Assembly: GCA_030522415.1 (NCBI GenBank)
Contig: CM060113.1
Coordinates: 5,924,967-5,988,966 of the forward strand
Reading direction: 5' to 3'
Length of the DNA: 64,000 bases
From: Channallabes apus
Taxonomy: Eukaryota > Chordata > Actinopteri > Siluriformes > Clariidae
The first letter of the stretch is position 1, and each line of letters begins with the position of its first letter. Both the position numbers and the translations under genes were made by a program. The notes below the pieces were generated by a model. That model was not told the DNA's origin. It searched no databases and worked only from the letters and a program-made list of their open reading frames with translations. Below are positions 1-64,000 of the stretch, piece by piece.

Positions 1-1463
1 GACCGTTTAGGGAAGTAATCCAACCCTACACCGTGAATATTGCATTCAGATGATGGGACGCTTTTTTATATATAACTCACCAGGCCGTCTGTACTCCCTG
101 CTTTTATTTTTTTATTGCCAAAGCCACATCGGATTGCACACTAAGAGTCAGAACAGTAAGAACCCTGGGGATAGATCATATTTACGACTTGTTTGGACAC
201 TTTGAGGGTTCTTGTAATAAGTCCTCTTAGAGATCCTTATTTCCGTGATGAGGCTCACAAAGGGTAGCAGATGGTTCCTGTTTCTTTGAGGCTTCTTCCA
301 CTGTCCCTTTAGTTTCACTTCATCAGTCATTCACCATAATTGCACATCTGCATGCAAGTAGAGCATGCTTAGCATCTGTTGGTGTGTGTGTGTGTGTGTC
401 TGTGATTTAGTGCAATAGGTTCTCAGGAAGGTTGATATTTTAAAAGAGCATCTGTAGCAGGTGGGCGCTCTACACCATCATCAACAAGCTAGCGTACTGT
501 AAGTACACGTCGATGACGGGAAAAGAGTTTGTAGAAATAGTTAAAAGGTTGAAGCTAAAAATAAGCTGATCAGCTTTAATGTAAACAGTGATACAGTGAT
601 GTCTGTCTGTCTGTCTTGAAAAAGTAGATCGCATAAAGATTAACTTTCGTCTTTAAAATTCACTTATACCAATTTATGAAACGTAAAGATATCACTGGAA
701 GAGCGAGTTCTGACCAATGTACAGACAGAACCTTTCTCTTCTTTATATACATAAAGTTTAAAGTTTCACCTACTTTAACTTACAAGTAGGATTATGTGTG
801 ATGTGTTATTTGGCAACCAGTTAGAAGTCAAACAGCTTTATTAGTGATTGTGCAGGAAAAAGATCACGTGACCGTGTGGTTCGATATCAATTCAAACTTC
901 ATGTTGAGCTGAAACTACAAAAACACAAAAAAACAAGCTTTTTTTCTCAACTTCCAGGCTCGCATTAAGAGTTTAATCCCCAATATAGTACACATCAAAA
1001 ACCCGAGACATTCCCAGTATGAACCTAAGCTATGTGACACAAGCTGTGTGAACTCTCACACTACACCAGAAGCCCAAAACTTGCTCCCTGCAGGCTTCCT
1101 GACTGGCCTGAAATCCCTCTCTATTGTCCATGGATGTTCATTTCCTGTCCCTGCATCCACTCGTGGATCCGGACCTGTGGATTTTGTCCCCCTCGCCGTT
1201 CCCCCGCCCTGTGGGTAAACTGTTTCGGGGTTAGCTTGGTAGCCACCGAGGTCAAAGGCCGCCTTGTTCACAGGAGGAGTGTGTCCTGGTGAAAAGTGTG
1301 AAAGGGTTTGATTGTGAGTCGATGGTGGTTTAGTTAATGCTGTTGAAGGCAGGGTTGAGAGACAGGCTTAAGGGTTGTGTGAGGTCGTCGCAGTCAGCAT
1401 GCGGGAGGAGGAAGTGTACTTACTAAATGACCAAGGACTGAGGAGTTACAATACAGATCATTG
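1..1463. other. Non-coding stretch, no gene recognised
   Basis: No ORF here resembles a known protein. The only structure seen is a short GT run near 380-400 and one TACTGTA heptamer near 495. The longest minus-strand ORFs overlap the SINE that follows and show no domain. Confidence 0.5.
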
Positions 1464-1702
1464 CGGCACGGTAGCGTAGTGGTTATTACTGTCGCCTTGC
1501 ACCTCAAGGGTGTGCGTTTGGTCCCATGAAGTTTGTGTCCATGGAGTTTGCATGTTCTCAGGACACTAAAGACACTAGGCGGATTTTTCTGTGAGCTTAA
1601 ATTGCTCCTAGCGTAGATTCCCTCTTTGCCTCTTCGACTCCTGACTCCACCCGACCAAGATAAAGTGCTTACTAGGGATGAACGAATGTCTGAATGAATG
1701 GA
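1464..1702 (+). repeat. Degenerate tRNA-derived SINE copy
   Basis: The head matches the better copy at 51811-52163 (GCGGCACGGTAGCGTAGTGG, then the 'ACTGTCGCCTTGCACCTC' block), followed by the 'GGAGTTTGCATGTTCTC' block. The middle is deleted. The tail resembles the family end 'GATAAAG...GATGAA...GAATGAATGG'. The TA at 1472-1473 in the head matters because the sibling copy at 60538-60871 has TACAGTA at that position. Confidence 0.75.
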
Positions 1703-2614
1703 GATATAGATCTCCGCAGTCGCGCCTAAACCATGTGTCACATGTAAAGTCAGCGTTTCCGTCTCCAGGTTCAGCCTGATAGAAGCGACAGGTTGAGCTC
1801 TAAATCCTAGAATTAAGACTCGCTTGTCTGCACCTCTAGAGCCGTCCTTCACTCCTGCTGCTTCCTTGTGCGAGTCAGGATTACTGGATAAGCTGGTTAA
1901 TTTGATCCACATCTCTAACCAGATTTCTAATCTCTCTCTCTCACACACACAGATTTAGATTTAGTCCGAAATGTCACATTCAATCGCTACGATCCACAAT
2001 AACGTCTCTCGTAATTACATTCAAACATGAACTTCTTAAGAAAAACGTCGAGACCGTCCTTAACGGCGCGATTACTCACTTAATGAGATTCAGAATCCTA
2101 ATACTCGTCTATCTTTTGTCTCTTAACTACAATCCCATGTGCTGTATATACTGTACGGCTGCTGATGTGATGTTGCACAGCTGTGCCTCTGCGTGTTCCA
2201 GTCACGATTACTCCGTGTTTACTCCTCTCGCTAGATCATCGTCCAGATGCTGAACTTTAAGAGGGATTTATCTTGCTCTCTGTCAGGCATGCGGCGTGTC
2301 TTCTGAAGAACTTCTGAAGAAGCTGCGCACCTGGAGAGCTGTCCCGTGTCCTACGGGTTTCACTTATTCGGACTTTAAATGGACTTTGGGATGCGGTGTT
2401 GATGTTGCTCAGTGAAGTGGTCTCTGTGGATGTTAGCATTTGATGCTAAATACAGATTAATTTACCAAAACCTAAACATCCGAAATGTGTTTAGTCCTGA
2501 AAATTTCTTAGTCAGTTCGCTGTTTATTTCAAACTCGCATATGAAACATTCAGGCTTTTTATATCCAGACCAGTTCTTGTATAATTTATCTTGTATGTAT
2601 AATTTATATTAAAT
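1703..2614. other. Non-coding stretch, nothing recognised
   Basis: No coding sequence, RNA gene or repeat recognised. One TACTGTA heptamer lies near 2148. Confidence 0.4.
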
Positions 2615-3770
2615 GATCTGTAGAATTACTATAAAACTCTATGCAGTTTCAGTTTTGCCATGAAATGCACGTGCTGTAGAAGGTTTTGCTTTGAGATGCA
2701 TGTTCAATAGAATTTTTACATTGTTCTGTAAAACTCTATAGACTTACATCATGACTCTATAGAACCTTTAGCTTCATAATGCATGTTCTATAATAATTTT
2801 AGTCAGTTCTATAGAGTGATAAAGACCTGCAACAGGACTTTATAGAATTTTCTCTTTGAGATGCATCTTCTATGTAATTTTTACTCAGTTTAGAGGAACT
2901 TATAAACCTGGAATATGATTCTATAAAATTTTTGATTCGAGATGAATGTTTATAGAATTTTGACTCTGTTCTATAGCACTCCATAGACAAACAACACGTC
3001 TCTATAGAACTTTTCCCTCGAGATCCATCCTCTATAGAATTCAGTCCTATAGACCTCTATAGACCTACTGTACCTGCACATCAAGACTCTATAGAACTTC
3101 AAAGTGCATGTTCTATATAATATTAATAGTTCTATAGGACTCCATAGATGTACAACAGGACTATACAGAACTTTAAGCTTTAGAATTCTGGTCTTATATA
3201 ATTCTTACTCAGTTCTATAGAACTCCATGGACCTGCAAAAGTAATCTACAGAAATTCTGCTTTAAGGTGCCTGTTCTAAAAAGAGTGACTCAATTCTATT
3301 GAATTCTATAGACCTGCAGTAGGACTCTACAAAAATGTCTATGTTGATATGTATGTTCTGTAGAACTTTAGAACTCTAAAGATGTACAACAGGACTATAA
3401 ATAAAGCTAATCTAAAGAATTCATGTCCAATAGAGTTTTACTTAATTCCTTTCAGTAGGGTTCTATAGAATGTTTGCTTTGAGATGCGTCCACTATTGAA
3501 TTTTACCAAGTTTTATAGACTCTACAGTACAGCAGAATATATAATTTTACGTAGTTCTATAAAACTCTGTCGATCTGCACTATGACTCTTTTGAAATTCT
3601 GCTTCAAGATACGTACATGTTCTACAGAATTTTTTATTTCTATTAAGCTCTATAGACCTGCAGTAAGAATCTACAGAACGTCTGCTGTGACATCGATGCT
3701 CCACAGAACCGTGCTTTAGTTCTATTGAACTCTAGGGAAATTCTGAGAAAGCTTGTTTATAGAATCTTTC
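2615..3770. repeat. Degenerate ~81-bp satellite array, about 13 units
   Basis: The stretch is built from a repeating unit containing TTCTATAGAACTCTATAGAC, CTGCAACAGGACT, then TTTTGCTTTGAGATGCATG. Landmark 'GAGATGCATG' variants start near 2693, 2779, 2858, 2940, 3021, 3100, 3262, 3341, 3416, 3482, 3607 and 3692, giving a period near 80 bp that shortens towards the right end. Each unit carries two or three short palindromes of type TTCTATAGAA. Units differ at many positions, so the array is old. The short ORFs crossing it (for example 2799-2990 and 3522-3704, minus) are translations of the repeat and not genes. Confidence 0.85.
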
Positions 3771-6401
3771 CTTTTCAACAAAATCCCTTCCGTTGTTTAG
3801 AATTTTCTTATTTCTTCACTGCTATAAAACATCCACGAGTTACACAAACTTTTTTTGGTTCTTGCCAACAATTAAAACACATTGCTGTGTCTCTGGTGGA
3901 TTATAGATTCTCTTTAAAACCAATTTGTAAAATTGCAAAATATCATTACAGCTGAGAACTCGTCCTTGAATTTCGTCCTGCAGAACTAAGTGTATTTTTT
4001 ATATGAAATTTTTAAATATGAAATTTGGGTTAAATTCATTAAATTAGGCATGAGAGGCAGTTGCCCTGCTCCTAAAATCCAGAATGACCTCTTTAAGGTC
4101 TATCTTTTGCCCTTTGACCCTTTATTCTTGCCAGAAAGGTTTGCAAGAGCTAATAATTTTACAGCCAAATTTACATCATGTGTTTACAGATTTTCTTATA
4201 CAAATCGTTCCAAGATGCAGATTATATAAATAAGTGGCAACGAGTTGCTCTTCAGCTGGACGTTAAACATCCACTCCGCATGACTCAGAGCTTCCAGGAG
4301 TGATACTCAGAGGCTTTTCAGGCGGAAGACGAGCGCTGCTTTATCTCGGAACGCGTTGTCTTCTTTATTCTTCGCGGCACAATTCCCTGCCGCTGCTAGC
4401 GTGTGCTAACGGTCTGTACGCGATATCGGATTGGGAAAGTTGACCTGGGGAACGTCTGTCGTTTTCCGTGACTTTCTTTGTGTTTGCGTGTCTGCGTTGA
4501 GGTTCTCCTGCGCTGTTGTAGAAACAAACGAAAGTGTCCTGTTGATGTTTTTAGACCAGCAGCCGTGTGGGAAAGTTCTCGTTGTTTGTAGTCTGTTTAT
4601 TTAGATGAACTGGACTCTAAATAAGACCTCGCAGTCTGACTTTTTTTTTTTTTTTTTTTAATGTGTTTGCATTTTGTTCACATTTGTCAGACCTCTGAGA
4701 CAGAAACACAGATGCTCACAGATGTTTCACGTACACAAAATCTGAAGCGTTTCACATGACGAGACGATAATACAGCGTCAACTCATGTGTAACACATTGT
4801 ATTAAATAATTCTGACTTGTATTATTACATGCAAGGAATAACACACTTCGGGTTGTGATGTTGTATGAAAAACTTGCCGTGAAGACGAGCGGTTTGAAGA
4901 CGATCGCGACGTTACTCCACTGAACATAACTGTTTTACTTACGGACAGAGAAAGCTCCCGTTGTGTTTACTCACGCGTTAAACAATCCGTAACGTTCTAA
5001 CATTATATATCTAATGCAGAACTCGTTATATAACCGCCAGCGACTGATTATAAAAACATCATAAATCTGCCTGCACAGGTTGTTTGATGATGTCATTGTG
5101 ATTCACTTCTGTCTCTTTGTAGGACCGCGCCGCCGAAAGTGAGGACCAAAACCCACTTAGTGTTAGAAAGCTGGTGTTATGATTCAGATAAGCAGACGGG
5201 TGGATTAGAGACCTTCCGCTCTCGGGGTCAGTTTGTTTAACGCTGTCTAAACTATCCAGTCTGTACCTCGTGAAGTTAAAAACAATGGGTTTCAGGATTT
5301 GAAGTTTTAGTCTGAGTTTCAGAATCCCACCACATGCAGAGCTACGTACATCGGCTTAGTTCGTGTTCATGTCCGTAGCCGTTAAAGCTCAGAGCATTTT
5401 AGCCATTTAGATGTTTTGGTGTTTTTTAATAATCTGCCATATACAGGGCTCGTGATTGTGCAGTGTAGAGTTACGTGTCCTTTTCAACACAAAATAGGCA
5501 AAATGGTTAACGGAATTTTTTATCTTTTTTATTTTAACCAACTAGCACACACACATTAACTAGTGTTTTTATGCTTGTTTTTGACAAAAACCTAATAATA
5601 TGCTCATTTTGAGAGTTCTACATTTCGCAACGTCATTCCCATATCCAGGTAGTGGTGACATTTACACATTATAAACGTAATGAACTTGTTGTTCTACTGT
5701 ACCTGACAAATCCAAAAACCCTGCAAGATTTCCATGTACGCACATACTGTATATATTTTTCATCGTGATTGACCTACGCTTTGTTGCCGGCACTATCTAC
5801 AGGTACTAGCTTGTTACATTTGCTAACACGGCACACAAAACATAGTCCTGAGCAAACACACGGCGTTTTCACTCCCCGGATTTTGTGCTAAATCCACTAG
5901 AAATCCACTTTCGCTGAATTCATACATTTAGTTTTTTTCACAACATCAGTTTCTAAAGACATGAAGGAAGTAAAGTGTGTTTTGTTTTTCCCTTGATGGT
6001 AACTAACTGGTTAATTAGTAACTGCATTATTTTCCTAATAATTTAGCATAATTCATCTAAATCCATCTTGGCAATCTGTTTTTGATTTCTATTCCTTCAC
6101 TGGCAAAGTTGTAAAGCACGAAGTCAAGACGTATCAGTGTCATGCGTCTGAAAGTGTACAAAATATTAACAATATTTAGCAGATCTGAACAGAACCGCTG
6201 TGAAATGTGCTGACTCATGTGCTAGCACTCGCTAAAGGGAAAACGAAATCCAGATTTGTACCGTTTTTCTCGTTCTTTATTGATCGTGTTGTGACATTTT
6301 GTGGTGTGAACAGGGCAAAAATGAAAATCAAAGAGCTCTTTACAAAACATGAGAAAGACATTAGACAGTTGGGGGACATGGCTGGTACGTCTGTGTACAT
6401 C
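3771..6401. other. Non-coding stretch, no gene recognised
   Basis: No ORF with a recognisable domain. A T-run lies near 4641-4660. TACTGTA heptamers occur near 5697 and 5744. A possible acceptor-like TTTGTAG near 5122 is not followed by a convincing exon. Confidence 0.45.
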
Positions 6402-7303
6402 GGTTGGTGGAGGAGTGTCTGGTGGAGGAGTGTGTCATGGAATGGAATAGTGTCTGTTAGTAGAGGTGTATTAGTAGAGGTATGTCTGCTGATTCAGCAG
6501 TGGAGGAAGTATATGTGGTGGTGGAGGAGTGTCTAGTGGTGGAGGTCTATTTGGTGATGTGGTGTCTGGTAGTAGAGGAGTGTCTGCTGATGAAGGTGTA
6601 TCTAGTGGTGGAGGAGTGTCTGGTGATGGAGGTGTGTCTGGTTGTGGAGAGGTGACTGGTGGGTGGTAGTGGTGTGTCTGGTGATGGAGTGGTGTATGGT
6701 GGTGTATGGTGGTAGTGGTGTGTCTAGTGGTAATAGTGTGTCTGGTGGTAAAGAAGTGTCTGGTGATGGAGGTGTGCCTGCTGGTGGGGAAGTGACTGTC
6801 TGGTCATAGTGATGTGTCTGGTGATAGAGTGGTGTCTGTTAGTAGAGCAGTCTGGTGAGGGAGATGTATCTGGTGGTAATAGTATGTCTGGTGGTAGTGG
6901 TGTATCTAGTGATGGAGGTGTGCCTGGTGGTGGAGAGGTGTGTCTGGTGATGGTGTGGTGTTTGGTGGTAGAGTTGTGTCTGTTTGTAGAAGTGTATCTG
7001 GTGTTGGAGGAGTATTTGGTAGTGGAGGAGTATCTGGTTGTAGAGGTTTATTAGTAGAGGTGTGTCTGCTGATTCAGCAGTGGAGGAAGTATATGTGGTG
7101 GTGGAGGAGTGCCTAGTGGTGGAGGTGTGTCTGGTGGTGGAGGAGTGTCTGGTGAAGGAAGGTGTGTCTGGTGATGGAGGTCTATTTGGTGATGTGGTGT
7201 CTGGTAGTAGACTGCTGATGCAGGTGTATCTGGTGATGGAGGCATGTCTGTTAGAGGAAGCAGGTCTAAAGATGGAGCCACTTCTGGTGGTGGAGTTGTG
7301 TCA
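6402..7303. repeat. G/T-rich minisatellite (TGTCTGGTGGTGGAGG type)
   Basis: About 900 bp of almost C-free top strand made of variants of GTGTCTGGTGGTGGAGGTG, roughly 18-21 bp per unit. A longer block (TAGAGGTGTATTAGTAGAGG, TGTCTGCTGATTCAGCAG, GGAGGAAGTATATGTGG) occurs at about 6461-6600 and again at about 7041-7220, so the array also contains a duplication offset by 580 bp. The ORFs that cross it (6207-6536, 6809-7054, 7062-7448 plus; 7051-7281 minus) consist of low-complexity Val/Glu/Gly or Pro/Thr/His runs created by the repeat and are not genes. Confidence 0.85.
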
Positions 7304-8142
7304 GGTCGGCTTCGGTTTTGGGCTTCAGATGTTCATCTACTCAATAAATAAGTTAGACAATAAACAAGTTAGTGTTCATCGGCTTCTAACCGTGATGAAG
7401 GTGCTAATCGGACCAGTGCAGTTTTGTTGTCTCAGGGTTAACAAATGATACCTTTTTATAAATATTTCTGAAAGCCTTGTATGTACAGAAGGTGCTAAAG
7501 GAAGTCGGGTCATGAGCTGGTATTTGTAATACATTTTGCCACCTTTTTTCTTCAGAAAGTCATTTCTCTGAGGCATTTCATGAACCTGTGCTTTATTATC
7601 CCACCATAATTTGATGGCACAGTTTGTTCACTTCGTGTTCAGGGACTGGAGGCAGACCGGAAATATGACCATGCCAATTTATTCCTCAAATTTACCTTTA
7701 ATAGGAGGCAGGCTTCCACATCTCCTTTGCTCTCAGTGCTTTATAAATTTGTATTTATTTATTTTTTGCCACTGGCACATATTATTATAAGGGGCAGATT
7801 TTATAGACTGACTCATATATGCAGTTTCGTCCAATAAGTCACTGATAGTGTTTTTGATAGATATGGCACAAATCAGTAAGCAGGTCATGTGACCAAGCCG
7901 ATAATATTGAATATTGATCAAGGGGTTTGGGAAAAGGTTTATGGGTTCTGAATATTTTTTTCTTGTTGATGTGGAACGCTCTTTATGACTTATGTATGAT
8001 TTTATTTATTTCTGAAAAATAAGACGTTTTCAGGCAACATGTGCTTCTGGGAAAACAGAGAGATGATAAACTGTGTGAGATAAAATAATTCAGGAAGGTT
8101 AAATGCGGGGTGTGTGGATTTTGAGCCATGATAAGGAATGTG

Positions 8143-8178
<36 letters not shown>

Positions 8179-9440
8179 AATAATAGATATTTACATATTT
8201 ACTTTGAGTTTGACGAACTGGAATAATGTTAACTCTAACAGTGCTGCATAAGCAAGTTATTGCAGACAACCAGAACTAGCCAAGACCAAATCGAAACAGA
8301 ATTTTAAGATCAGTCAAGATCAAGTCAAGGCGGGTCCACAATGAATGTTAGACAGAGAAGATGACACAAATATAATTTTTACAAACTTTCAGTTCAGTAC
8401 CTGAGACAAGAGACAAGTCCAAATATGCTTTCAAATGCAGTACATACAAGATGAGTCCAAGTCAAATTAGACCATTTCTGGAACTCAATAATAATCTAGA
8501 CTAGTATATAATGATTTAGGTCACAGGTCCAACACAAGCCAACACAAATTCAGACACGAGATCAAATCAAAGCGTCTGATGCACGAATAAATGAGAATAT
8601 AAATGAGGACTTGAGCGGCTATCAGTGTGTATCAGTATGTAGAAGTGTGTGTGTGTCCCTGCTCTGCTTCTCTCTGCTTTGCATTAAACCCCCTCGTCGG
8701 GTTCGAGCATCATCGGCCCACAACAGACCCGCCTCAATGGGACGCAGATTGTTCAGTGTTGTTTTAGCCCATTGGGGAGAGGAACCGCTCGCGATAAAGA
8801 TCTCCAGGACCTGCTTTAGTTAGAGTTATCGTACCCGTGCAGTGGAACGGGGAAGCGTGTGGGTGTGCACCTACTGTAGGTGACTAGATGTTGGTGTGTG
8901 TGGGCAATGTAAATATCATTATAAGTCTGTAGTTGACGTTACTTTTTTTTTTAGATCGGAAGTGTTCATTATTGGTGGTGATTAGACACATGCAGCAGAG
9001 CAGAGTAGAACCAGGATTCGTGCCAGAATCATCTGTATGCAGAATTTTAAATCGTCATGACCTCATGTGTACGCACGCACATGTTTGGGAAGAATGAACC
9101 TACCAGCTTTGTAGTTGCAGTCTGCGAAATATAATACACCGAACTAAAAGGACAAGATGAAGGAAGTGTGTATCTGTGTGTCATCGGATGATTAGAGAAC
9201 TGAAAGCATGAATGAGAAAATGTTCTGCTGTTGAATACGTTAAACCGAAGAGTTTAACAAATCAGGAGGAGAACCTCTTCTGCTGTTGTAGAACGTCCAC
9301 CTGATCATGAGATGCTTTTCTTCTCACCATGGTTCCTTCTCATCACTCTGGCTGTCGCATCTCACTTGTTAGATTAAAAACGGATTCACCATGTAGTGGA
9401 TGTTTTTTGTTTTAACGCACCATTCTCCTTAAGTTCTCTT
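7304..9440. other. Non-coding stretch with one GT microsatellite
   Basis: A (TG)n run lies at 8143-8177. From about 8270 to 8575 there are scattered CAAGTCCAAG/GTCAAGATC motifs that may be a decayed tandem repeat. TACTGTA occurs near 8872. No gene recognised. Confidence 0.45.
8143..8177. repeat. (TG)n microsatellite
   Basis: Uninterrupted TG dinucleotides, about 17 units. Confidence 0.95.
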
Positions 9441-9887
9441 TACTGTGGTACCTCGGCGTACGGACGCCCCGCCTCAAAAATGTTTGCCTTAAAAACTGAA
9501 ATTTTGCAAAGCAATCTGCCTCGGCATACAAAGTATTTTCGAAATTCGAGCAAACAAACCGAGCCGAACCGTTCAAAGTTCAAAACTTGTTTGCGTCAAT
9601 GGAAACATGACGGGTCTCAAGAATGTTAGAAAGGAAGTCGCTTTTAGTTTTGTTTTTAAAGCAGCCGGTGCCAAGTGGAGCCAAGACTTACTGTCGAAGA
9701 ATGTATACATGTATTTAGGGCTGCAACTAACGATAATTTTGATAATCGATTAGTTGGCCGATTATTGTTTCGATTAATCGATTAATCGGATAAAAGCTAA
9801 ACGCTTCTTTAATTTGATGTTTTGCTTATAATTATATATAACTATTATTTATTTATATATACAGTATAACACTGTCAACTTGCCATC

Positions 9888-9890
<3 letters not shown>

Positions 9891-9962
<72 letters not shown>
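9891..9962. repeat. (AT)n followed by (GATA)n microsatellite
   Basis: AT dinucleotides at 9891-9922 run into about ten GATA units to 9962. It lies inside the hAT MITE, next to the fold-back point. Confidence 0.95.
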
Positions 9963-9963
<1 letters not shown>

Positions 9964-10183
9964 TCTCAATTAATTGGATAAAAGCTAGACGCTTTAATTT
10001 GATATTTTGCTTAACTATAGAAAACCATAAATCAGGGTATTATTTATGTATAAAAGTAAACTTTAAAAAATGCAATAGCCACATAGAGTTTAATTATCTT
10101 TAATATTGACAATTAAACCTTATTTTTTGTAAATCAACATTTTTTTTTTCACAGTAATTGCAGATGGCAAGTTGACTGTGTGT

Positions 10184-10188
10184 ATATA

Positions 10189-10263
<75 letters not shown>
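10184..10263. repeat. (TG)n-(TA)n microsatellite
   Basis: A short TG run leads into about 30 TA units (10204-10263). It lies in the right arm of the hAT MITE. The small ORF at 10191-10406, with an alternating Tyr-Ile stretch, is an artefact of this run. Confidence 0.95.
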
Positions 10264-10266
<3 letters not shown>

Positions 10267-16162: not shown

Positions 16163-16193
<31 letters not shown>

Positions 16194-49589: not shown

Positions 49590-49657
<68 letters not shown>

Positions 49658-51760: not shown

Positions 51761-51810
51761 TAGTCACCAGAAGAACAAGTGAAATTTGTCATATACTGAA
51801 AACTCAGGAG

Positions 51811-52163: not shown

Positions 52164-52394
52164 ACTCAGGACTCAGGGTTGAAAATTGAGATCTGAGGGG
52201 ATAACACCATGTTCCATCACCATGACGCCCACAATACAACCTCATGTGGTCCAAATGGCTTTAAGAATTCTTCAGAAATTAAAAGGCTGTTCATATGGAG
52301 CACCCATCATACAAGTCCTAGGGTTAGCAATTCAGCAGAAACTATAACACACTTTTAACCAATCAGAATCAAGGATTCAATAATTCTGTACTTA

Positions 52395-53064: not shown

Positions 53065-53130
53065 TACTGTGCTGTGAAAAAGTATTTGCCCCTTCCTTGT
53101 TGCATTTTTGTCTTATGGACTGCTTTAAAT
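53065..53130 (+). mobile_element. Solo end fragment of a Tc1-like element
   Basis: TA-CTGTGCTGTG followed by AAAAAGTATTTGCCCCTTCC matches the left inverted repeats at 30208 and 55015. Similarity fades after about 65 bp. No partner end is found. Confidence 0.7.
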
Positions 53131-54028
53131 GTGAGTCAGTACCATACACTGGACTTTTCTATACAGTACAAAGCCACGGATGCAACATGACACACTTCAA
53201 ATAAACAGCTTTGATATTTAAGAAAACAGAAAAGAGTTGATTTTTAGGATTTCTGTTAATATACAGTAGAATTCATGGAAGGAGTCTCCAGTGTTAGTGT
53301 CATGTACAGTAAGAGTTTTTTGCAGGAAATTGTCAGGGTTTCTAACTACACAACCTGTATCTTTTTGTCTTATAACTTGAAGACAGATAAGTTTTGTGGT
53401 CCAACAATATGGAAGTCCATCTCTTTCACAGCGTAACGCCTCTAGTGTTTTCTTTCTGATGGGTTTGTTTTTCCATGTGGTATAATTATTACTGGTTATT
53501 AAGGGGTACTATACAGTATACAGTAAGTGGCCTAGCAAAGTTATCCTGGTACTGAGTCAAACTCTACAGTACATCGCCATTCTCTTTAGTTTTAGTTTTC
53601 TTTTTTAGTGCTTAATATCTTTGTTTGTAGCCAGAGATATTTTTTAAAAATCCTGCTCGTGTGGATGAAATCTTTTGGGGAAAGTAAAAACCATAGACTA
53701 TTTATATACATGTGGCTCAGGGTGACCTTGGTTCAGGGTATCTCAAAAAGATCTTACCACCAGATTAAAACAGTGCATGTAACTGACCTTAAGAAGCCCT
53801 TCTTGCTTTATACTGTAGACCCTTTTAAAGGCAGCACTTGGACCACTTCTACCCCATGTCACATCGTGTCCAAGTCCTTATCACCACTGACCTTCTTGCC
53901 AAAAGAACATTAGAGACAGAAATAGGGGACATGGACGGAGTGTTGGAGTAAACCCATGTTGCTCAGTAAACCCATGTTACTCGAGTTACTCCACTGTCAT
54001 TAATTAATGTACAGTAGTTATTTTAATT
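53131..54028. other. Non-coding stretch, dense in footprint heptamers
   Basis: TACAGTA/TACTGTA lie near 53164, 53262, 53306, 53512 and 53519 (adjacent pair), 53566, 53811 and 54010. The ORF at 53608-53913 (+) shows no domain. Confidence 0.45.
53512..53525. other. Adjacent pair of Tc1 excision-footprint candidates
   Basis: TACAGTATACAGTA is two TACAGTA heptamers placed head to tail. Origin inferred. Confidence 0.5.
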
Positions 54029-54130
54029 AGGGTTTCCTCCGGGGAATCTGGTTTCCTCCCACATTCCAAAGACATGCAGATTATGCTAAATAACGTTCTC
54101 AAGTTGCCCGTAGTGTGAATGTGCGGTTGT
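54029..54130 (+). repeat. SINE body fragment
   Basis: GGTTTCCTCCGGGGAATCTG, CCTCCCACATTCCAAAGACA and GTTGCCCGTAGTGTGAATGT match the SINE body. Head and tail are missing. Confidence 0.8.
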
Positions 54131-55014
54131 ATAAATGGGAATAAATACAATGGTAATCACCACTGGCCTCCACGATTCCTAATTGGTCTACAGATACAGA
54201 TTGGTACAGATAGCACCTTTCTGAACAGTCATAGTTAGATCCTCTCTAGCATAGATTGATTGCTGGAAGACTTTGACATTTGCAATGCATTTTATTTAGG
54301 TTTTTCATGCTTCCTCTTTAATTCCAGTTTGATGTAGCTGTGCTGTAGGTCTCAGCAGGTTTCCATAAACCCATGGACAGCTTTGTTTGTCTGCAATCAA
54401 CTGCCACAAGTGACCATGAATAGGCAGTCATAAAAAGTTGCATGCTCAAAACATACACGCCCATTGCATGCCCACACCGACAGGCTACAAGTCACTGAAT
54501 CACCCTGAGATATTCCCCAGCAAACCAAGCTCTTGGTGGTCATACAGTAGGACTACCCCAAGCTCAAGCTCATCATGACTGAATTTGCAGCCATTTGTGG
54601 AGAAAAATCATAAGCAGTTTGGGTGTAACAGCAATTAAGTTTTTTGAACTGACTGGCATGTCTTCTCCAGATATACAGTAGGCATTCCTATAGAGTTCCC
54701 GTGACTCCAGACATTGGAGGCCTTGTACAGTATAAAATAATCTTGCATCATATGAAAAGAGAGCAAAGAAAATGGACTAAAGCAGGTGCGTAACACGATT
54801 CTGAATACACAGAACTTGACCTAACTTTTAACCTCTAACTCTAACTTTCACTCTCTTGTAATGATTTATATCTCTCTCAATGATTCTTCCTTATGTTTGT
54901 CTCAGGACGTTTTCCGTGATCACTGTTGTTGGTTTGTTCATTATAGAGTTTCAGTTCCTTTTTTAGTTTCTGAAGAAATGAACCTCTTAGATGTGAAACA
55001 TACATCAGACAAAA
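54131..55014. other. Non-coding stretch, nothing recognised
   Basis: TACAGTA heptamers occur near 54543, 54674 and 54726. No gene recognised. Confidence 0.4.
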
Positions 55015-56637
55015 TACAGTGGTGTGAAAAACTATTTGCCCCCTTCCTGATTTCTTATTCTTTTGCATGTTTGTCACACTTAAATGTTTCTGCTCATCAA
55101 AAACCGTTAACTATTAGTCAAAGATAACATAATTGAACACAAAATGCAGTTTTTAAATGAAGGTTTACGTTATTAAGGGAGAAAAAAACCTCCAAATCTA
55201 CATGGCCCTGTGTGAAAAAGTGATTGCCCCCCTTGTTAAAAAATAACTTAACTGTGGTTTATCACACCTGAGTTCAATTTCTGTAGTCACCCCCAGGCCT
55301 GATTACTGCCACACCTGTTTCAATCAAGAAATCACTTAAATAGGAGCTACCTGACACAGAGAAGTAGACCAAAAGCACCTCAAAAGCTAGCCATCATGCC
55401 AAGATCCAAAGAAATTCAGGAACAAATGAGAACAAAAGTAATTGAGATCTATCAGTCTGGTAAAGGTTATAAAGCCATTTCTAAAGCTTTGGGACTCCAG
55501 CGAACCACAGTGAGAGCCATTATCCACAAATGGCAAAAACATGGAACAGTGGTGAACCTTCCCAGGAGTGGCCGGCCGACCAAAATTACCCCAAGAGCGC
55601 AGAGACAACTCATCCGAGAGGCCACAAAAGACCCCAGGACAACATCTAAAGAACTGCAGGCCTCACTTGCCTCAATTAAGGTCAGTGTTCACGACTCCAC
55701 CATAAGAAAGAGACTGGGCAAAAACGGCCTGCATGGCAGATTTCCAAGGCGCCAACACTTTTAAGCAAAAAGAACATTAAGGTTCGTCTCAATTTTGCTA
55801 AAAAACATCTCGATGATTGCCAAGACTTTTGGGAAAATACCTTATGGACCGACGAGACAAAAGTTGAACTTTTTGGAAGGTGCGTGTCCCGTTACATCTG
55901 GCGTAAAAGTAACACAGCATTTCAGAAAAAGAACATCATACCAACAGTAAAATATGGTGGTGGTAGTGTGATGGTCTGGGGTTGTTTTGCTGCTTCAGGA
56001 CCTGGAAGGCTTGCTGTGATAGATGGAACCATGAATTCTACTGTCTACCAAAAAATCCTGAAGGAGAATGTCCGGCCATCTGTTCGTCAACTCAAGCTGA
56101 AGCGATCTTGGGTGCTGCAGCAGGACAATGACCCAAAACACACCAGCAAATCCACCTCTGAATGGCTGAAGAAAAACAAAATGAAGACTTTGGAGTGGCC
56201 TAGTCAAAGTCCTGACCTGAATCCTATTGAGATGTTGTGGCATGACCTTAAAAAGGCGGTTCATGCTAGAAAACCCTCAAATAAAGCTGAATTACAACAA
56301 TTCTGCAAAGATGAGTGGGCCAAAATTCCTCCAGAGCGCTGTAAAAGACTCGTTGCAAGTTATCGCAAACGCTTGATTGCAGTTATTGCTGCTAAGGGTG
56401 GCCCAACCAGTTATTAGGTTCAGGGGGCAATCACTTTTTCACACAGGGCCATGTAGGTTTGGATTTTTTTTCTCCCTAAATAATAAAACCCCTCATTTAA
56501 AAACTGCATTTTGTGTTTACTTGTGTTATCTTTGACTAATAGTTAAATGTGTTTGATGATCAGAAACATTGTGTGTGACAAACATGCAAAAGAATAAGTA
56601 ATCAGGAGGGGGGCAAATAGTTTTTCACACCACTGTA
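55015..56637 (+). mobile_element. Nearly intact Tc1-like transposon, 1.62 kb, with CAG termini
   Basis: TA at 55015-55016 and 56636-56637 flanks ends that start CAGTGGTGTGAAAAACTATT on both sides (right end read on the minus strand). Inverted repeats are about 210-220 bp with an inner repeat of the TIR motif (GTGTGAAAAAGTGATTGCCC near 55209; complement near 56425-56447), again the IR/DR design. One transposase ORF (55396-56417) has a single apparent one-base deletion. Relatives in the window are the truncated copy at 30208 and the end fragment at 53065. Elements ending in CAG are expected to leave TACAGTA or TACTGTA on excision. Confidence 0.96.
55396..56417 (+). pseudogene. Tc1-like transposase, broken by one apparent 1-bp deletion
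   Basis: DD34E transposase of the Tc1 family, about 340 codons, the usual family length. It starts MPRSKEIQEQMRTKVIEIYQ, with a paired-like HTH (GYKAISKALGLQRTTVRAII) and the hook motif RSGRPTKI, then a second HTH (TSKELQASLASIKVSVHDST). The frame is lost near 55752-55760, just after GRFPRR. One base fewer than the expected codons explains it, and the rest runs open in the next frame to the stop at 56417. The catalytic residues are all present: Asp in LWTDETKVELF, Asp in LQQDNDPKHTS, and Glu in SPDLNPIEMLW 34 residues later. The glycine-rich box KYGGGSVMVWGCF is intact. Apart from the deletion there is no visible stop codon, so this copy is young. Confidence 0.95.
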
Positions 56638-57415
56638 TATAAAACACTTTTATATATTCTGTTAGTCGTTACCACGGTAATGCGATAGGTCTCCGGGGGA
56701 AACGACGGAAACGGCTGAAGCCGTCGTCCCGCTGACTCGACCTGATTTGTGGTTAAACATCCTCTTAGCTGGTTTTGCTTGCCATGGACCATAGTAATGA
56801 CCCTGTAACGGCTGTGCCACCCAGCACGTGTCGCTGGAGCGCGGCGTCCATAAACACCACCACTTCCAGCGTCAACAAACACGTGGAAACATTTCACCGC
56901 GGGGCAGCTGGTGCGAGGGCGGTCCGTCGCGTTTATCTTGGGCATCAAGTGAATTAACACACCGTCATGCAGAGGAGAGCTCAGATACGCTAAGACAAAC
57001 AGCTTAACAATGCTGTACAGACACACAACCATATGGTGGAATAAGTTCATCTGTACCTACAGAGTGTGGTCTTGTTACAGTATGTGGAATGTTTGTGTGT
57101 GTGTGAGTATTTTTACTAGAGTGTAATTACATGTCTTTAGAATTGCCTCTCAAAGTGTTTTTTTTTTTTTCCCCCTGAAGAAAAATCTGTTAAAATGTTG
57201 GAGCATTATCCTTATTTATTCTAACAAAGAAATTTCATATCCATGTCGAAACTAAGAAAAATGCTACACACTAGTCAAACAGCATGATATTAAATTATTC
57301 CATCCGTCCATCTACTGTAGGAACCTCTGTAGTCCAACTAGGGGCCGGGGACGCCAATGGTGATTAACATTGTGTTTATTTCCACTTTTACAAGCGTGGT
57401 AGAACCTCTGGTCAA
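56638..57415. other. Non-coding stretch, nothing recognised
   Basis: GC-rich patches near 56690-56720 and 56815-56940, no recognisable coding. The ORF at 56625-57050 (-) overlaps the Tc1 end. TACAGTA near 57078 and TACTGTA near 57313. Confidence 0.4.
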
Positions 57416-57561
57416 CATCCACACACTCATTCACACACTACAGGCAATTTTGGAACACGAATTAGCCTAAGTCTTTGGATTGCGGGAGGAAACCGGAGAA
57501 CCCCGGAGGAAACCCACCAAGCCCTGGAGGTGCAAGGCGACTACTAAGCCACGGGGCTTTT
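57416..57561 (-). repeat. SINE fragment
   Basis: The reverse complement carries GGTTTCCTCCGGGGTTCTCC, GGTTTCCTCCCGCAATCCAA and AATTCGTGTTCCAAAATTGC. The head is reduced to TAGTCGCCTTGCACCTCCAG. Confidence 0.8.
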
Positions 57562-57991
57562 TAATAATTTTTTTCATAATACATTTATAGTATTCTAAAA
57601 TTATATGCTGTTCTTTTTAGCACAGATATTCCCTAATGCAAAGATCGAGTGACTGAAAAGCGTCTAAAAGCTGCAGTAAAATTAGCTTAGTTATTCCCGA
57701 AGGTATCACTGAACAGTATGATACGCATATATTAATAATATAACCACATGTCAATTAGATTACACCAGAGGAATGCTGCTAACATGCTGCTAAAATACTC
57801 GACGGTATACTTTAAATAAAGGCGGAAAAAAAAATAAAACGTGGGTTCCTAGAAGAAGCTCAGCCTCTGCGTGACGTTCTGCAGTAACCTCAATAAACCT
57901 GAGAACATGTTCAGCTACCCGAGTTGTATTTTGCATTAATTAAAGCAGCTGTCGGTTTGTTTCTCCTTATAGGGAGCGCGTTAAAGATCTG

Positions 57992-58032
<41 letters not shown>

Positions 58033-58230
58033 GTGATAAATTGAATTTCTGTCCACCTCGTCAGGAAACGGGACGCAAGAGTATCGGGTTCTGTGTTTTG
58101 ATTCTGCACAATCACTGCAGACATTAGTGTGGCCGAAAAAAGAGATGTCCAGACGTCTCGGGCAAATTAGTTTTAGAGAAACTGTCACAGTAGCTAAACC
58201 AGCCGGGTGGGAAATCCAAGCCAGGTCAGC
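57562..58230. other. Non-coding stretch with CA microsatellite
   Basis: Contains the CA run at 57995-58031. No gene recognised. Confidence 0.45.
57995..58031. repeat. (CA)n microsatellite
   Basis: About 18 uninterrupted CA units. Confidence 0.95.
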
Positions 58231-58322
58231 CCGGGAGGGGGTGAGGAGGGGGTGAAGGGGTACGAGGAGGGGGTGAAGGGGTACGAGGAGGGGGTGAGGA
58301 GGGGGTGAAGGGGTACGAGGAC
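58231..58322. repeat. G-rich minisatellite
   Basis: Four or five units of GAGGAGGGGGTGAAGGGGTAC, purine-rich on the plus strand, with many runs of four or five G. It could form G-quadruplexes. The proline-rich ORFs on the minus strand (57967-58395, 58226-58456) are its translation. Confidence 0.85.
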
Positions 58323-58848
58323 AGCCATGTCGTGTGTTTGTGGTTAAATTGTAATTTAATGACATAATTAGAATGCATCCGTATTTGAAATGCACTGCAC
58401 ATGGCTAACGGATGCGTGCAAAAGTTTGTACACCCTTGCAACAAAGTAAATTTCAATTGAGTCCATTCTCTGTCCTATGCACTGAGTGTCTTTTAGATCC
58501 TCTAACATACAAATTCCCTTTATATTGTTTTTGACATATTGGTTGTAACTGTGTCAGATGTCGGACCCTGTTGTTTTAAGAGCCTGGATACTGAGAGGTT
58601 TATGGACAAAATTTGACATTCATCATTTAGTTAATTCAAATTGTTTCTGTTCGTCCTTTTTTTATCCTTTAAATATTTAAATCTAGACTTTACAGTTGTG
58701 GTAACAGAGTCATGTGATTCAGGTTAATGTCTGGAAAATAACCAGGCTTAAAGGTTATATGGTTCAACTGGATTCAGAGTGGTTGCGAGGTGGAATCCAG
58801 ACTACACACATACTGTAGTAGAAATGTTTGCTTAATATGAAGGACGTT
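58323..58848. other. Non-coding stretch, nothing recognised
   Basis: TACTGTA near 58811. No gene or repeat recognised. Confidence 0.4.
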
Positions 58849-59443
58849 CAAGTCAAACCAGGACTTTTTGGTTGTGCAGAATAACAAAACTCCCTTTATT
58901 TATTTCTCTATATAATCCCCTGATACACTAATACACTTATCTAACACACTAATACACTTATTGTATCTAATACACTAATACACTAATACACTTATCTAAC
59001 ACACTAATACACTAATACACTTACTGTATCTAATACACTAATACACTTTTCTCAGTACGCCGGACTGCCTGCGTCACATCTGAAACACTGGCCTATCAGG
59101 AACTCCCTTAATCCTATAATTAAACGTGTGGAGCGAGGTCAGGACTGTACAGGATATGGCAATAACTACCAGCTGAGTTTCTGTAATGTGCAAGTGGCGT
59201 TGATGAATGCGTGTGTGTCTCTTTCTCAAGTTGGAGACAAGTCATGGATTAATTTTCAAGGATCAGGCGCTCTACTCGCTGAATGTTAACGGGAACGACT
59301 GCATGTCGCATGTCGTCACTCACGGACATGCGACCTTCCTTAAAACATTTACACCATTCAAATACTTTACAGCAGTTATGAGTCTCATCACTGTGCGCCT
59401 TCATTCACCAGAAAGTTTATCACAAGTCCCAGTTTGAATTGAA
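58848..59443. mobile_element. Internally deleted mariner copy with both ends
   Basis: The left end carries CGTTCAAGTCAAACCAGGAC, and the right end on the minus strand CGTTCAATTCAAACTGGGAC. TA dinucleotides flank the ends a few bases outside. The interior shares the 'ACTGCCTGCGTCA...ACACTGGCCT' stretch with 17280-17310 and GAGTCTCATCA with 42560. It gives the empty site (58913-58914) for the MITE at 16516. A tandem repeat (58925-59047) lies in its left part. No transposase frame survives. Confidence 0.75.
58925..59047. repeat. CTAATACACTTATCTAACAC tandem repeat with footprint variants
   Basis: Units alternate between ACACTTATCTAACAC (TA at 58938-58939 and 58993-58994) and ACACTTACTGTATCTAATAC (TACTGTA at 59022-59028). 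A third form has TATTGTA at 58959-58965. The longer units equal the short unit with CTGTA or TTGTA added after TA. Confidence 0.85.
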
Positions 59444-59735
59444 CGCCCCCTATATAACTTCTAGCACATGTAGTGTTAAAAAAAAAAAAAGTCTGGTTAA
59501 AATGTCCCTGGGGCGCAGGCTTGGACATTCGTGTTGTCCGATACACTCATTATACGTAAATTATAAAACACAGCCGATATTTTTCCCATTTCAAAAACCC
59601 AGGGGTGCGCAAACTTTTGCACTTCATTTTCCAGTTTGTACTGCATACAGTATGTTATCCATATATTAATTACATACGAGAATGTAATATTAATAATAAA
59701 CATAACACTAAAACAAACACAGTGGTCCGCTGTGT

Positions 59736-59771
<36 letters not shown>

Positions 59772-60537
59772 GCATGTTGCAGGAGGTTGTCGATATTGAG
59801 CCGTCAGCTTGCAGCCCCTTTTCCTTCCCCCTGCGGTGTTTACGACTGTGGCTCAGGAAGGGAATCTGTTCTACAAGGGTATATTTTTACCTGCGTTGTC
59901 GGCTTGGGGAGAAGTTTGTAAGGAGACACCGGTCGCTACAGCGAGCTGGCGGAGCTCAAAGCCCGAGCCGCGTGGAGCGATGCGGAGTATGTGGGCAGAG
60001 TGGCAGCTCCTGTGTCGCTGTACATGTATGCTGGAACATGCATCCGTCATTATGATACCCGAGCGGAGAGACCAAAGGAGAGAGGTGTTATGGGAAAAGG
60101 GAAAGGTCAAGCAGAAGAGAAGTGGGGATGAGTTCGAGGAAGTAAATCAATCCTAAAAAAAAAAAAGTGATGTTTTGAGATATTGCTTGACCAACACTAG
60201 CATGTTTAATAATGTATTCAGGAATAAAACACAAGGGGGGGGGGGGTTGGTTGTTCCCTCACAAAGATTTAAAAACCTGTGATGGAAAAGTTACTCAAAG
60301 TTTCAAAGCCTTGACATTGGAGTCTAAAAGACGATTGACGTTACACTAGGGGGCAGCGTAACCCACTCAAAGAGAATGTTATCCACCCTCTTCCGCCTGC
60401 GTGAGCATGCAGATGCCCATGATTGGCTATTACTGTATCTTTGTGATTGATCTGAAAGAGGGATTTGATCTTGTGATTGCCGGATAGTAATAAAAAGACA
60501 AACCCTTTTTTTGTGGCACCACTTGGAACTAAACTCG
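59444..60537. other. Stretch without a recognised gene; one GC-richer patch
   Basis: An A-run lies near 59478-59489 and the CA run at 59738-59770. From about 59800 to 60150 the sequence is GC-richer and holds two overlapping ORFs (59636-60055 and 59809-60156, plus) without a known domain. A G-run lies near 60235-60247. TACAGTA near 59648 and TACTGTA near 60433. Confidence 0.4.
59738..59770. repeat. (CA)n microsatellite
   Basis: About 16 CA units. Confidence 0.95.
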
Positions 60538-60871
60538 CTGCTTTATCCTGTATACAGAGTCGTGGGAGGGATGGAGCCTATTCCAGGAGACTTGGGCACT
60601 AGGCGGTGTACACCCTACACCGGGTAGCCAGTGCATCGCAGGGCACACAAACACACACACACACACACTTTGGACAATTTGGGATACCGATTGGTCTAAT
60701 CTGAATGTGTGTGGACTATGAGATGAAACCGGAGTACCCGGAGGAAACCCACCAAGTGCCGGGTGAACATGCATACTCCATGCACTCAGACCCGAGGTGG
60801 AAATCGAACCCGGACGCTGGACGTGCAAGGCGACAGTGTTAACCACTAAGCTACTGTACTGTGCCGCCTCG
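60538..60871 (-). repeat. tRNA-derived SINE, nearly full length, with a footprint in its head
   Basis: The reverse complement begins GGCGGCACAGTACAGTAGCT, then TAGTGGTTAACACTGTCGCC, CGGGTTCGATTTCC (B box) and GGTTTCCTCCGGGTACTCCG. It ends in CTGGAATAGGCTCC and a short GGATAAAGCAGC tail. In the copy at 1464-1702 the same place reads GCGGCACGGTAGCGTAGTGG, with TA where this copy has TACAGTA (60852-60858 on the plus strand). ORF 60529-60846 (-) is a translation of the SINE. Confidence 0.9.
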
Positions 60872-62366
60872 GAGCAAATTCATTCATTTTCATTTGTCTT
60901 AAATGTCCTGAAGCTTATGATTCTTTACTTTAAGTGTGAAATGTAATTAACTCCACCTTATTGGAACTGCTGCCTGTTTCTGTTATGGAAAATGAATCAA
61001 CCCCTTCTGACCAATCAGACATGAGATTTTGAGAAGTGCTGGGTCAGGAGTTCCCCCTGGTGCCTAATCGGGGGGGGATTTGACCTCTGTCCAGTTATAG
61101 CATGAGGATAATATCTTGAGACGCTGTGATGCAACAGTCCACAATCTCTAAGTTGTATCTGTGTAATAAGAGAGAAAGCCCAGGTCATGCATGTCGTGTT
61201 GGGGTTATGGGTAAATCCTCCTTTCCTGCCCATGGGGGGGCTTTAAGGCAGCAGGAGCTGATTAGCTTAGTTTAATAACACTCATTTTACAAACACAGGG
61301 AGCTTTTATGCCACTTAAGCCACCAAAGCTCATTAGAAACCCGGCGGCCTCGGCAGGTACTGTATGGTTCCTATTTCACACTGCAGTGGAAGTCAGGCGC
61401 TGATCAGTCAATGGAAGTGATTTAGCGCAGAGGAAGGAGACAAGGTCGACTTCATTCATGAGCAACAAATGCAGAGGGATCTAGGCTCGGACAAATGAGT
61501 CTCATCTGTGGATTTCTCTAAGTGATAATAAATGATTGTGTGGAGGTTTGGAGGCGGAAAAAAAACGTCATGTGGTCAAATTCAGACGTTTTCCAAAAAT
61601 TTGACCACATGATAGTTTCCTCCCCCTAAACCTCCACACAAATGAAATTGGTGTTTTCTTTGCAAATTCAATAACTCAATCACAAGTAACAGTATAAAGT
61701 CTGGTTTCTCCAAGAATAAGAGACAAGCTGGAATGTTAAGACTTTTCATTCCAGTAAAGTTAAATTGAAAAACCAAGAGAAAAATAATCATACGTTTACA
61801 ATCGGGAAATCTGTAATTCTCAGCCTCGTCCACATCAGTGTCTGTCTCTTCATCGTCTCGATCCCCCGAGGGTCTCTCCTAATGCTCACATCAGGGAGAA
61901 AATAATCACTGTAATAATTCACTCGGCTCTATTCACTACCTTCCTTTTTATTAATGTATTAAGCCTTTAAACATTTTGAACATTTACATTTTTTGTTGAC
62001 ACGATGCTCCCAAAGAGCTTTGGGAATATTTTCCTGTTCAAATTACATATTGAATTATATAATAATGAAAAGTTATTAATTATTAGGCAAAGTTTTAGGC
62101 ATCTTTAAACAGACTAGACTGTTTGTTAAACTGCTTCCTTTCTTATTCTGCTCCATTTTTATATCATTTTGACAAAATGTGAATATGTTTTCTTAAAATC
62201 AAGAAATCAAAGTATGATCTTAGCATAAACACAAGCTTGGTATCCGTATTACTGAAAAAAGACACAGGAAAGAGGCAACACACTTGACATAAAAGGCTTT
62301 AGGAATAATGAAATAGATTGCGTGAAATAGATTCTCTGCTACAGTGACGTATTCGTCTCGTTTCAG
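60872..62366. other. Stretch upstream of the collagen exon, probably intron
   Basis: Contains the hairpin at 61537-61640. ORFs 61015-61233 and 61582-61833 (-) show no domain. TACTGTA near 61358. Assignment as intron is inferred from the exon at 62367. Confidence 0.4.
61537..61640. other. Strong inverted repeat (hairpin)
   Basis: The left arm 61537-61581 (TGTGTGGAGGTTTGGAGGCG ... GTCATGTGGTCAAAT) and right arm 61599-61640 (ATTTGACCACATGATAG ... CTAAACCTCCACACA) are complementary with few mismatches. The spacer is 17 bp. It could be a short MITE remnant or a transcribed hairpin; the sequence alone cannot decide. Confidence 0.8.
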
Positions 62367-62411: not shown

Positions 62412-63087
62412 GTGAGTTCGACTGAAAATTCTACTCCAGCCTTCTGGTATTGTTTAAATCTCATTGTGATTCACTGGTGAAATCTCTCACATCACATTCT
62501 CAATAAATATCTCTCTTAAAAAAAAAAATCAAAGGGTTCGATGCTGTGATGCAGGATTTATAAACAAGGATCTTCCAAACATCATTCAGGCACTAATTAA
62601 GACCAGAATGAGTCAGGTGGAGAGTAAATCGTCTCATCTCACACAGACACTGAGTCAGACGGCCCAATCTGCTTTAACTATCCAAACACACTCTTCCTCA
62701 CTGCTTTCTCTTTGAGATAGACATCGTCGTCGTGGTTACAGATCCTGCACGGTAAGGGGATGAGACCTCAGTGAGCGCTGAGACACGCATGCTTCCTTTC
62801 CCACTCCTCAGGGTGCTGGTACTGTACTGTAAACTCTCTTTGATGTATCAATTAATAAAACATTCTATTTGTAATAATGAGATATTTATTAACAGCTAAA
62901 TATGAACTGATTTCCGCATTTGGTCGTTTACTTGGGTGCTTACGAACGAGGAAGTTTATGCAACTGATTAGGGCGATTCCAAACAGCGGGCAGCTAAACC
63001 ATGGGGAGAAACCTGGGCCTTAAAACATCTACCACATCTGCTTACAGTGTGAACATTGACTTTTAAATTAAACTGTAAAGTATTCAT
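62412..63087. other. Stretch after the collagen exon, probably intron
   Basis: Starts with the GTGAGT donor. TACTGTACTGTA lies at 62820-62831. No further exon recognised. Confidence 0.4.
62820..62831. other. Chained Tc1 excision-footprint candidate
   Basis: TACTGTACTGTA, two heptamers sharing a TA, as at 22725-22736. Origin inferred. Confidence 0.55.
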
Positions 63088-63372: not shown

Positions 63373-63411
63373 TATATAATCGCTTGATTACGTCGTGCTA
63401 TAAGCCATGAG

Positions 63412-63545
63412 TTAGGCTGAATCCCATTTCTATTTTCTACCCCTTCCCCTTCCCCTTCCCCTACCCCTTCCCCTTCCCCTTGTCCCTTGAAACGAAGTGG
63501 AAAGGGGAAGGGTTTAAATTTTTCCCCTAAGAAATGGGACACCAC
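63412..63545. repeat. C-rich fold-back with (CCCCTT)n run
   Basis: GGCTGAATCCCATTTCTATT on the left and, on the minus strand, GGTGTCCCATTTCTTAGGGG on the right are similar inverted ends. Between them lie about seven CCCCTT/CCCCTA units (63440-63481) and AAAGGGGAAGGG. It looks like a small fold-back element or one end of a larger transposon. The ORF at 63372-63569 (-) is mostly its translation. Confidence 0.55.
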
Positions 63546-63559
63546 TACAACACTGTTAT

Positions 63560-64000
63560 ACGTCATCATACGTTGTCACTAGTTCCTAATGTTACGTTAA
63601 AGGACATGCGCCGATGTTTATCACACATTGCAATAAGAGAGAGATTACTCACTCCCAAAGTATTTTCGCGCCGTATTTCATCCCTATACATAATATAAAT
63701 TATAAAAATATATAAAAATAAAATATATATTTGTAATATCGTGCAATCGGTGCTAGCCGCTAGCAAACTTTAGCGATTTTTTTGCAAACATTTCTTTACA
63801 GAACATCACCATAAACACAAACACAAGACTAGAGGTAATATACATATAATGAAAACTTGTCATAAAAATCTTTATTTATGGCAAAAATTTACATTTATGG
63901 GTCTGTTTGCTCGAGTGAGCCGCCATGTTGAAAATTTCTCTTAGCCCTTCGTTTGAAGTGAGGTCCTGAAAAATCTTCGTTTGAAGGGCTATCTGGCCCT
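63560..64000 (-). other. Right end: possible 5' end of a minus-strand transcript
   Basis: On the minus strand CAACATGGCGGCTC (63918-63931) has a good start-codon context and matches the ATGGCGG core of YY1-type promoter elements. The frame from this ATG stops after 16 codons at 63876, unless spliced at AAAT-GTAAAT about 30 bases in. Repeated motifs CCCTTCGTTTGAAGTGAGG and CTTCGTTTGAAGGGC near 63944-63987 echo CCCTTGAAACGAAGTGG at 63484-63500, so this end may instead belong to a repeat. Weak evidence. Confidence 0.2.

Follow-up and report, generated by a model that had tools for sequence, protein, structure and literature searches.

Why does a single heptanucleotide recur so often in a 64,000-nucleotide stretch of the genome of the clariid fish Channallabes apus (assembly GCA_030522415.1, contig CM060113.1, positions 5,924,967 to 5,988,966 of the forward strand; hereafter, the window)? 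The word is TACAGTA or its complement TACTGTA, together TACWGTA, where W is A or T, and it has the TA-CWG-TA form of an excision footprint, with three terminal bases of an element between two TAs. An initial annotation, made from the letters alone, had interpreted the words as excision scars of Tc1-type transposons. We put the probability at about 0.92 that most copies are cut-and-paste footprints of CAG-ended, TA-targeting elements, most likely of a resident, young Sleeping Beauty-like Tc1. Three tests, independent of one another, support it, namely, the target preference in the flanks, the collapse of scars against empty paralogous sites, and five-base insertions in the tail of a dispersed repeat.

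The heptamer excess in the window and the assembly

The window contains 51 copies of TACAGTA and 46 copies of TACTGTA, the first and last of which bound positions 495 to 63111, and the total of 97 bears out an earlier count of about 90 by eye. In 100 dinucleotide shuffles, the expected number was 10.66 (standard deviation, 3.07; maximum, 20), while order-2 Markov models gave 11.1 or, when trained on simple-repeat-masked sequence with the heptamers collapsed to TA, 8.4. All of these values are below the 13 or so estimated previously, and the excess stands; about 9 of the 97 heptamers are expected to be chance occurrences. Among the 32 strand-merged TANNNTA classes of the window, TACWGTA reached a z score of 25.7, followed by a runner-up at 2.7, with the other 31 classes near expectation. 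Ranked against all heptamers, it came 4th of 7,110 at Markov orders 1 and 2, behind CACACAC, ACACACA, and ATATATA, and 1st at order 4. The control words proposed in the initial annotation showed no excess (TAGACTA plus TAGTCTA, 6 versus 8.32 expected; TACGATA, 0), and TATCGTA occurred twice. The heptamers were present throughout the window, as had been claimed, at 2 to 14 per 4 kb; given the density of TA, this spread was mildly uneven (chi-square p 0.017). Composition, microsatellites, and dinucleotide bias were ruled out as causes by the shuffles, Markov models, control words, and simple-repeat masking, after which the excess persisted.

Footprints of nematode Tc1/Tc3-type elements are 2 bp long, and those of Minos-type elements are 4 bp long. 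Among the TA-NN-TA words of the window, no 2-bp scar class was enriched (TACATA/TATGTA, 54 versus 53.3 expected), and the top classes of both TA-NN-TA and TA-NNNN-TA words were AT-rich simple sequence, with no Minos-type 4-bp scar signal.

Genome-wide counts were made in the window's own assembly (1,164,683,209 bp; 93 contigs), which contains 489,770 forward and 489,833 reverse heptamers. These 979,603 copies compare with 130,018 plus 130,514 for the control, the word read backwards, and the excess is genome-wide. We also sampled a 10-kb stretch of each of the twenty contigs C1 to C20 (200 kb in total, of which 5,000 bases in one stretch are N); window and sample together are referred to below as the 264 kb. 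The sample contained 157 heptamers, of which 155 remained after masking, against 23.1 expected, and TACWGTA was again the outstanding TANNNTA class (z score of 27.4; next class, 4.2). Density was uneven: the sample stretches held 1 to 16 heptamers per 10 kb, and the window held 15, or 1.5 per kb, which is above the genome mean of 0.84 per kb. By arithmetic from the genome and sample counts, chance would account for about 0.14 million copies, leaving an excess of about 0.84 million that corresponds to about 4.2 Mb of added sequence, or 0.36% of the genome. The mouse genome is reported to hold more than 300,000 such words (PMC4378557), equivalent to about 7 per 64 kb if its size is taken as 2.7 Gb. 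In tandem arrays at C1:247718-251841, TACAGTA recurs mostly at a 25-base spacing, the satellite having multiplied a word that resembles a scar.

Insertions, flanks, and empty sites

The decisive insertion test concerned one dispersed repeat tail, GCGCTATATAAATAAAATT, of which 6,473 exact, empty copies exist genome-wide. A genome-wide query for any 5-base insertion at one place in this tail, with exact flanks (GCGCTATA-NNNNN-TAAATAAAATT), returned 59 matches, and the reversed pattern returned 0. As many as 52 of the 59 insertions yield an exact TACWGTA, five are one base off (TACATTA, TGCTGTA, TAAAGTA, TACTTTA, and TACTATA), and two are unlike it. The exact insertions occupy one TA in 28 cases (14 CAG and 14 CTG) and the next TA in 24 (9 CAG and 15 CTG), giving 23 CAG and 29 CTG in a fixed orientation, near-equal numbers that would be expected if a central overhang mismatch were settled either way. 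The 59 insertions lie on many contigs and in four main states.

For the target test, each heptamer was collapsed to the TA that it had presumably replaced, and its flank arms were compared with those of other TAs. The flanks of the collapsed scars were palindromic, A-Y-R/TA/Y-R-T (Y, pyrimidine; R, purine). AYR arms made up 42 of 194 at scars in the window versus 785 of 8,974 at other TAs (p 6e-8), and YR arms numbered 92 versus 2,305 (p 1.5e-10). The sample gave 55 of 314 versus 2,151 of 25,944 AYR arms (p 1.7e-7), and the pooled set of 249 heptamers with distinct flanks gave 95 of 498 versus 2,936 of 34,920 (p 1e-13). Sleeping Beauty has the target consensus AYATATRT (not confirmed in the literature that we searched), and the preference around TA that is expected of a Sleeping Beauty-type footprint was found in the window, the sample, and the pooled set alike. 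Alternating pyrimidine-purine bases are often enriched where transposases insert, according to a review (PMC7827188).

If TAs are hit at random, an existing scar offers further targets in its own TAs, and overlapping heptamer pairs are therefore predicted. Four such pairs were present in the window, against 4.1 expected, and nine in the 264 kb, against 7.3. Those in the window are on the forward strand at 13102 to 13113 (TACAGTACAGTA, as from a second event within a scar), 14272 to 14283 (TACAGTACTGTA), and 22725 to 22736 and 62820 to 62831 (both TACTGTACTGTA).

Repeats within this genome, used here in place of related species, provided plain-TA sites that are five bases shorter than the scar. 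At 59022 to 59028 (+), a scar lies in a tandem array whose other unit has a plain TA, the 5-base gap being exactly CTGTA. At 60852 to 60858 (+), within a tRNA-like dispersed repeat, the four other copies in the window can be aligned through the site once the scar is collapsed, and none with the scar kept. A scar in a local repeat at 26580 to 26586 (+) and a weaker one at 27206 to 27212 (+), removed by the low-complexity filter, mark different TAs in two copies of the same repeat, and a further copy at 26955 to 27023 has neither. Usable paralogues existed in the window for 5 of the 97 heptamers and for 30 of 352 control TANNNTA words (one control, at 60847, is the same locus as 60852), and collapse gave the better alignment for 4 of the 5 heptamers versus 3 of the 30 controls. 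In the 264 kb, 236 of 254 heptamers were testable, the remainder being near ends or N or of low complexity. A spanning paralogue was available for 25 of these, 9 of which aligned better collapsed and 13 better in full, with 3 ties; among 198 of 1,070 controls with a paralogue, 16 aligned better collapsed and 170 in full, with 12 ties. The ratio of 9:13 differs from that of 16:170 with a p of 2e-4. In two paralogous pairs, 57313 with L011:331 and L014:5770 with L014:6825, one copy has TACTGTA and the other TACAGTA; within the heptamer they differ at the center only, as if elements had been lost separately.

Probable mechanism, source, and age of the scars

The excision chemistry that we infer is that of published Sleeping Beauty work, combined with end-joining in the germline. 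An element would enter at a TA and duplicate it, and the transposase would then cut three bases inside each element end, leaving 3-nucleotide overhangs. In end-joining, the outermost bases would pair, and the mismatch left at the center, A.A or T.T, would be resolved in either direction, so that the product reads TA-CAG-TA or TA-CTG-TA. Each event would thus add five bases (CWGTA) at the old TA, to be inherited thereafter. Sleeping Beauty transposase is described as nicking three nucleotides inside the element, so that the breaks carry 3-nucleotide 3′ overhangs, to which end-joined footprints are identical (PMC7827188), and the typical footprint is given as TAC(A/T)GTA (PMC3432063).

The enriched trinucleotide, CAG/CTG, matches the terminal bases of elements that are resident in this genome. 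At 55015 to 56637 (+), a TA-flanked Tc1 element with CAGTGGTGTG ends has the TA duplication, inverted ends, and HTH_SB and DDE_3 domains of a Sleeping Beauty-like Tc1 and probably represents the kind of source involved. Its DDE part matches Sleeping Beauty SB100X (5cr4; E value of 4.4e-84), and single frames of 47001 to 62000 likewise matched Sleeping Beauty transposase in the PDB. The nearest named transposases, among the best 120 of 5,139 matches, are from Hemibagrus, Polypterus, Oryzias, Erpetoichthys, and Xenopus. The transposase part at 55680 to 56414 is 95 to 98% identical, over 86 to 89% of its length, to proteins of the last four, a cross-species identity that suggests that the family may have spread horizontally in recent times. 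CAGTGGTGTG ends occur at five places in the 264 kb (window 55015, L009 7356, L017 383, L016 8819, and L019 5565), with both ends in the fetched sequence at three of them, and the elements form two subfamilies that are 98.2 to 98.8% and 97.8% identical within. The 220 excess heptamers of the 264 kb outnumber these five elements by about 44 to one, in agreement with the earlier claim that scars far outnumber survivors, although counting the CAGTGGAACC and CAGTGCTGTG elements as well lowers the ratio. The other CAG-ended elements of the initial annotation were also found. That at 30208 to 30979 (+) has a single CAGTGCTGTG end and transposase remains at about 30559 to 30979. The other, described previously as a miniature inverted-repeat element at 16516, is a TA-flanked element with CAGTGGAACCTC ends that we place at 16514 to 17191, without strand, and take to be pogo-like. 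No transposase was detected in it, and a Pfam search of the six frames of 15001 to 30000 gave no match; it is a possible second source.

A second Tc1-type element, at 44690 to 46276, has 216-base inverted ends (94%) that start with CAAACCGG and are thus CAA-ended. The scar predicted for such ends, TACAATA/TATTGTA, occurred 14 times in the window versus 12.6 expected and 46 times in the sample versus 28.8, and it showed no target preference (4 of 92 arms AYR).

Few decayed forms accompany the perfect scars. In the repeat tail, the ratio of 5 one-mismatch to 52 perfect scars corresponds to a per-site divergence of about 1.4% (0.5 to 3.2%), and pooled 7-mer decay over the 264 kb gives a d of 0.06 (bootstrap range, 0.02 to 0.10), a value partly inflated by true element ends. 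One-mismatch forms in the window numbered 214 versus 188 expected, with control words varying by 14%, and under a model trained on uncollapsed sequence they numbered 216 versus 222.5, which is no excess. The scarcity of decayed forms points to a young record, of about 1 to 10% divergence, and by either decay estimate the bulk of the scars is young, not ancient. The "dense fossil record of excisions" envisaged in the initial annotation is accordingly retained as to excision and revised as to age.

It is likely that the scars were made by the resident Sleeping Beauty-like Tc1 families. Less probably by some distance, their main source was a different kind of CAG-ended element that also targets TA, for example, the pogo-like CAGTGGAACC family, whose ends occur at three places in the 264 kb, or families since lost. 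Footprints of 0 to 4 bp are known for Passer, a pogo-superfamily element of fish (PMC9976928), and the resident Tc1 subfamilies, at 97.8 to 98.8% identity, are perhaps younger than many scars, given a pooled decay of about 6%. Against such a source, CAGTGGTGTG is the commonest CAG start in the 264 kb (8 ends at five places), the repeat-tail scars are about 1.4% old, in keeping with the Tc1 copies, and the pyrimidine-purine flanks suit Sleeping Beauty-type targets (PMC7827188).

Points against, and comparison with known systems

Several results weigh against excision as the origin of the heptamers or limit its reach. More than half of the heptamers with a spanning paralogue (13 of 25) align better with the word kept and are thus native or amplified inside repeats; the heptamer at 45289 to 45295 (+), for example, is native transposase sequence, common to L015 9452 at 99% identity over 127 bases. 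A 25-base tandem array on C1 amplifies the heptamer, and at 60852 the TA itself is present in just one of the four partner copies. The unbiased catalogue of gaps contains few 5-base insertions. For the 264 kb, it has 2 footprints among 9 non-low-complexity 5-base rows, three rows being one locus in different registers; for the window alone, the script recognized no footprint among 11 distinct 5-base insertions, although that at 26578 coincides with the 26580 scar in another register. One-mismatch 7-mers are barely above expectation, transversions equal transitions in number among them, and decay is weakly measured. The transposase frame of the 55015 element is broken, which bears on activity, not membership of the family. 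Finally, the decisive insertion test covered a single repeat tail, with exact flanks and at length 5 only.

On another view, most heptamers would not record events of their own but would be fragments of repeats that have been amplified, of element ends, or of satellites. Besides the 13 of 25, this view is favored by the many heptamers that the 25-base-spaced array carries and by the occurrence of TTTACTGTAGAG within one terminal repeat. We consider it very improbable, as 211 of 236 testable heptamers have no spanning paralogue in the 264 kb, 249 of 254 have distinct 6+6 flanks, the excess survives simple-repeat masking, and the tail insertions are scattered over many contigs in their four main states. 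A conserved protein-binding or signal motif maintained by selection, which the near-palindrome TAC-W-GTA and the few one-mismatch forms might recall, is scarcely credible at about 0.84 copies per kb genome-wide, with five extra bases in dispersed-repeat copies and transposon-like flanks. Excision remains our reading for most heptamers, and the initial annotation is supported with the correction that about 9 of 97 are left to chance and the 13 of 25 to repeats or native sequence.

The scar agrees with the Sleeping Beauty footprint, TAC(A/T)GTA at a TA target (PMC3432063, PMC4378557), and the same transposase family is resident in this genome. In contrast to that footprint, which is known from engineered elements in cells and mice, the scars here are natural, inherited, and near a million per genome. 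ZB, a zebrafish Tc1/mariner element (PMC7913693), and Passer (PMC9976928) are likewise TA-targeting fish elements, with footprints of 0 to 3 bp and 0 to 4 bp, respectively, recorded in human-cell assays, unlike the genomic record described here. Inherited excision sites of DNA transposons have been read from genomes in rice (PMC4423477) and, for Stowaway, in Triticeae (PMC1925063); they were found by genome or gene comparison, and most lack a regular form (in rice, 8 of 94 were perfect), whereas the present scar is uniform enough to appear as a k-mer excess in a single assembly. In Caenorhabditis elegans, Tc1-type breaks also give empty sites by end-joining, but there end-joining is described as somatic, and in the germline, homologous recombination mends the break and puts the element back (PMC13148408); here, the scars are inherited. 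Within the literature searched, mostly by title and the start of the abstract and with few subscription journals or preprints, TACAGTA and TACTGTA appeared together in work on engineered Sleeping Beauty, and no genome-wide excess of a scar word was reported, which is weak evidence.

We lean towards the view that such scars are a leading source of new 5-bp insertions in this genome, with about 0.8 million inherited events at a few per cent divergence, or about 40 per surviving element of the commonest CAG-ended family. If so, the two ends of a germline excision break would be sealed directly to each other, almost every time with the identical result, and near a million inherited end-joining scars would represent the opposite regime to germline repair in C. 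elegans (PMC13148408). Transposon traffic, which is usually gauged from surviving copies, could then be counted and dated from the scars alone, as a uniform scar countable in one assembly would provide a direct tally of departed insertions. It would also reveal their target preference, date them by their decay, and allow selection to be tested, since an exonic scar shifts the frame.

Host genes were sought in parts of the window: of ten long open reading frames, three matched transposases and seven were without a family, and single frames of 1 to 15000 had no match in the PDB. Rfam gave none at gathering scores, and no related DNA was found in viral and prokaryote collections. CTATAGA and TCTATAG cluster locally at 2735 to 3656, which holds 12 of 20 and 13 of 18 of their copies in the window, respectively. 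A minisatellite at 6516 to 7194 consists of about 38 copies of a unit of about 18 bases, overlaid by longer periods of 140 and 146 bases.

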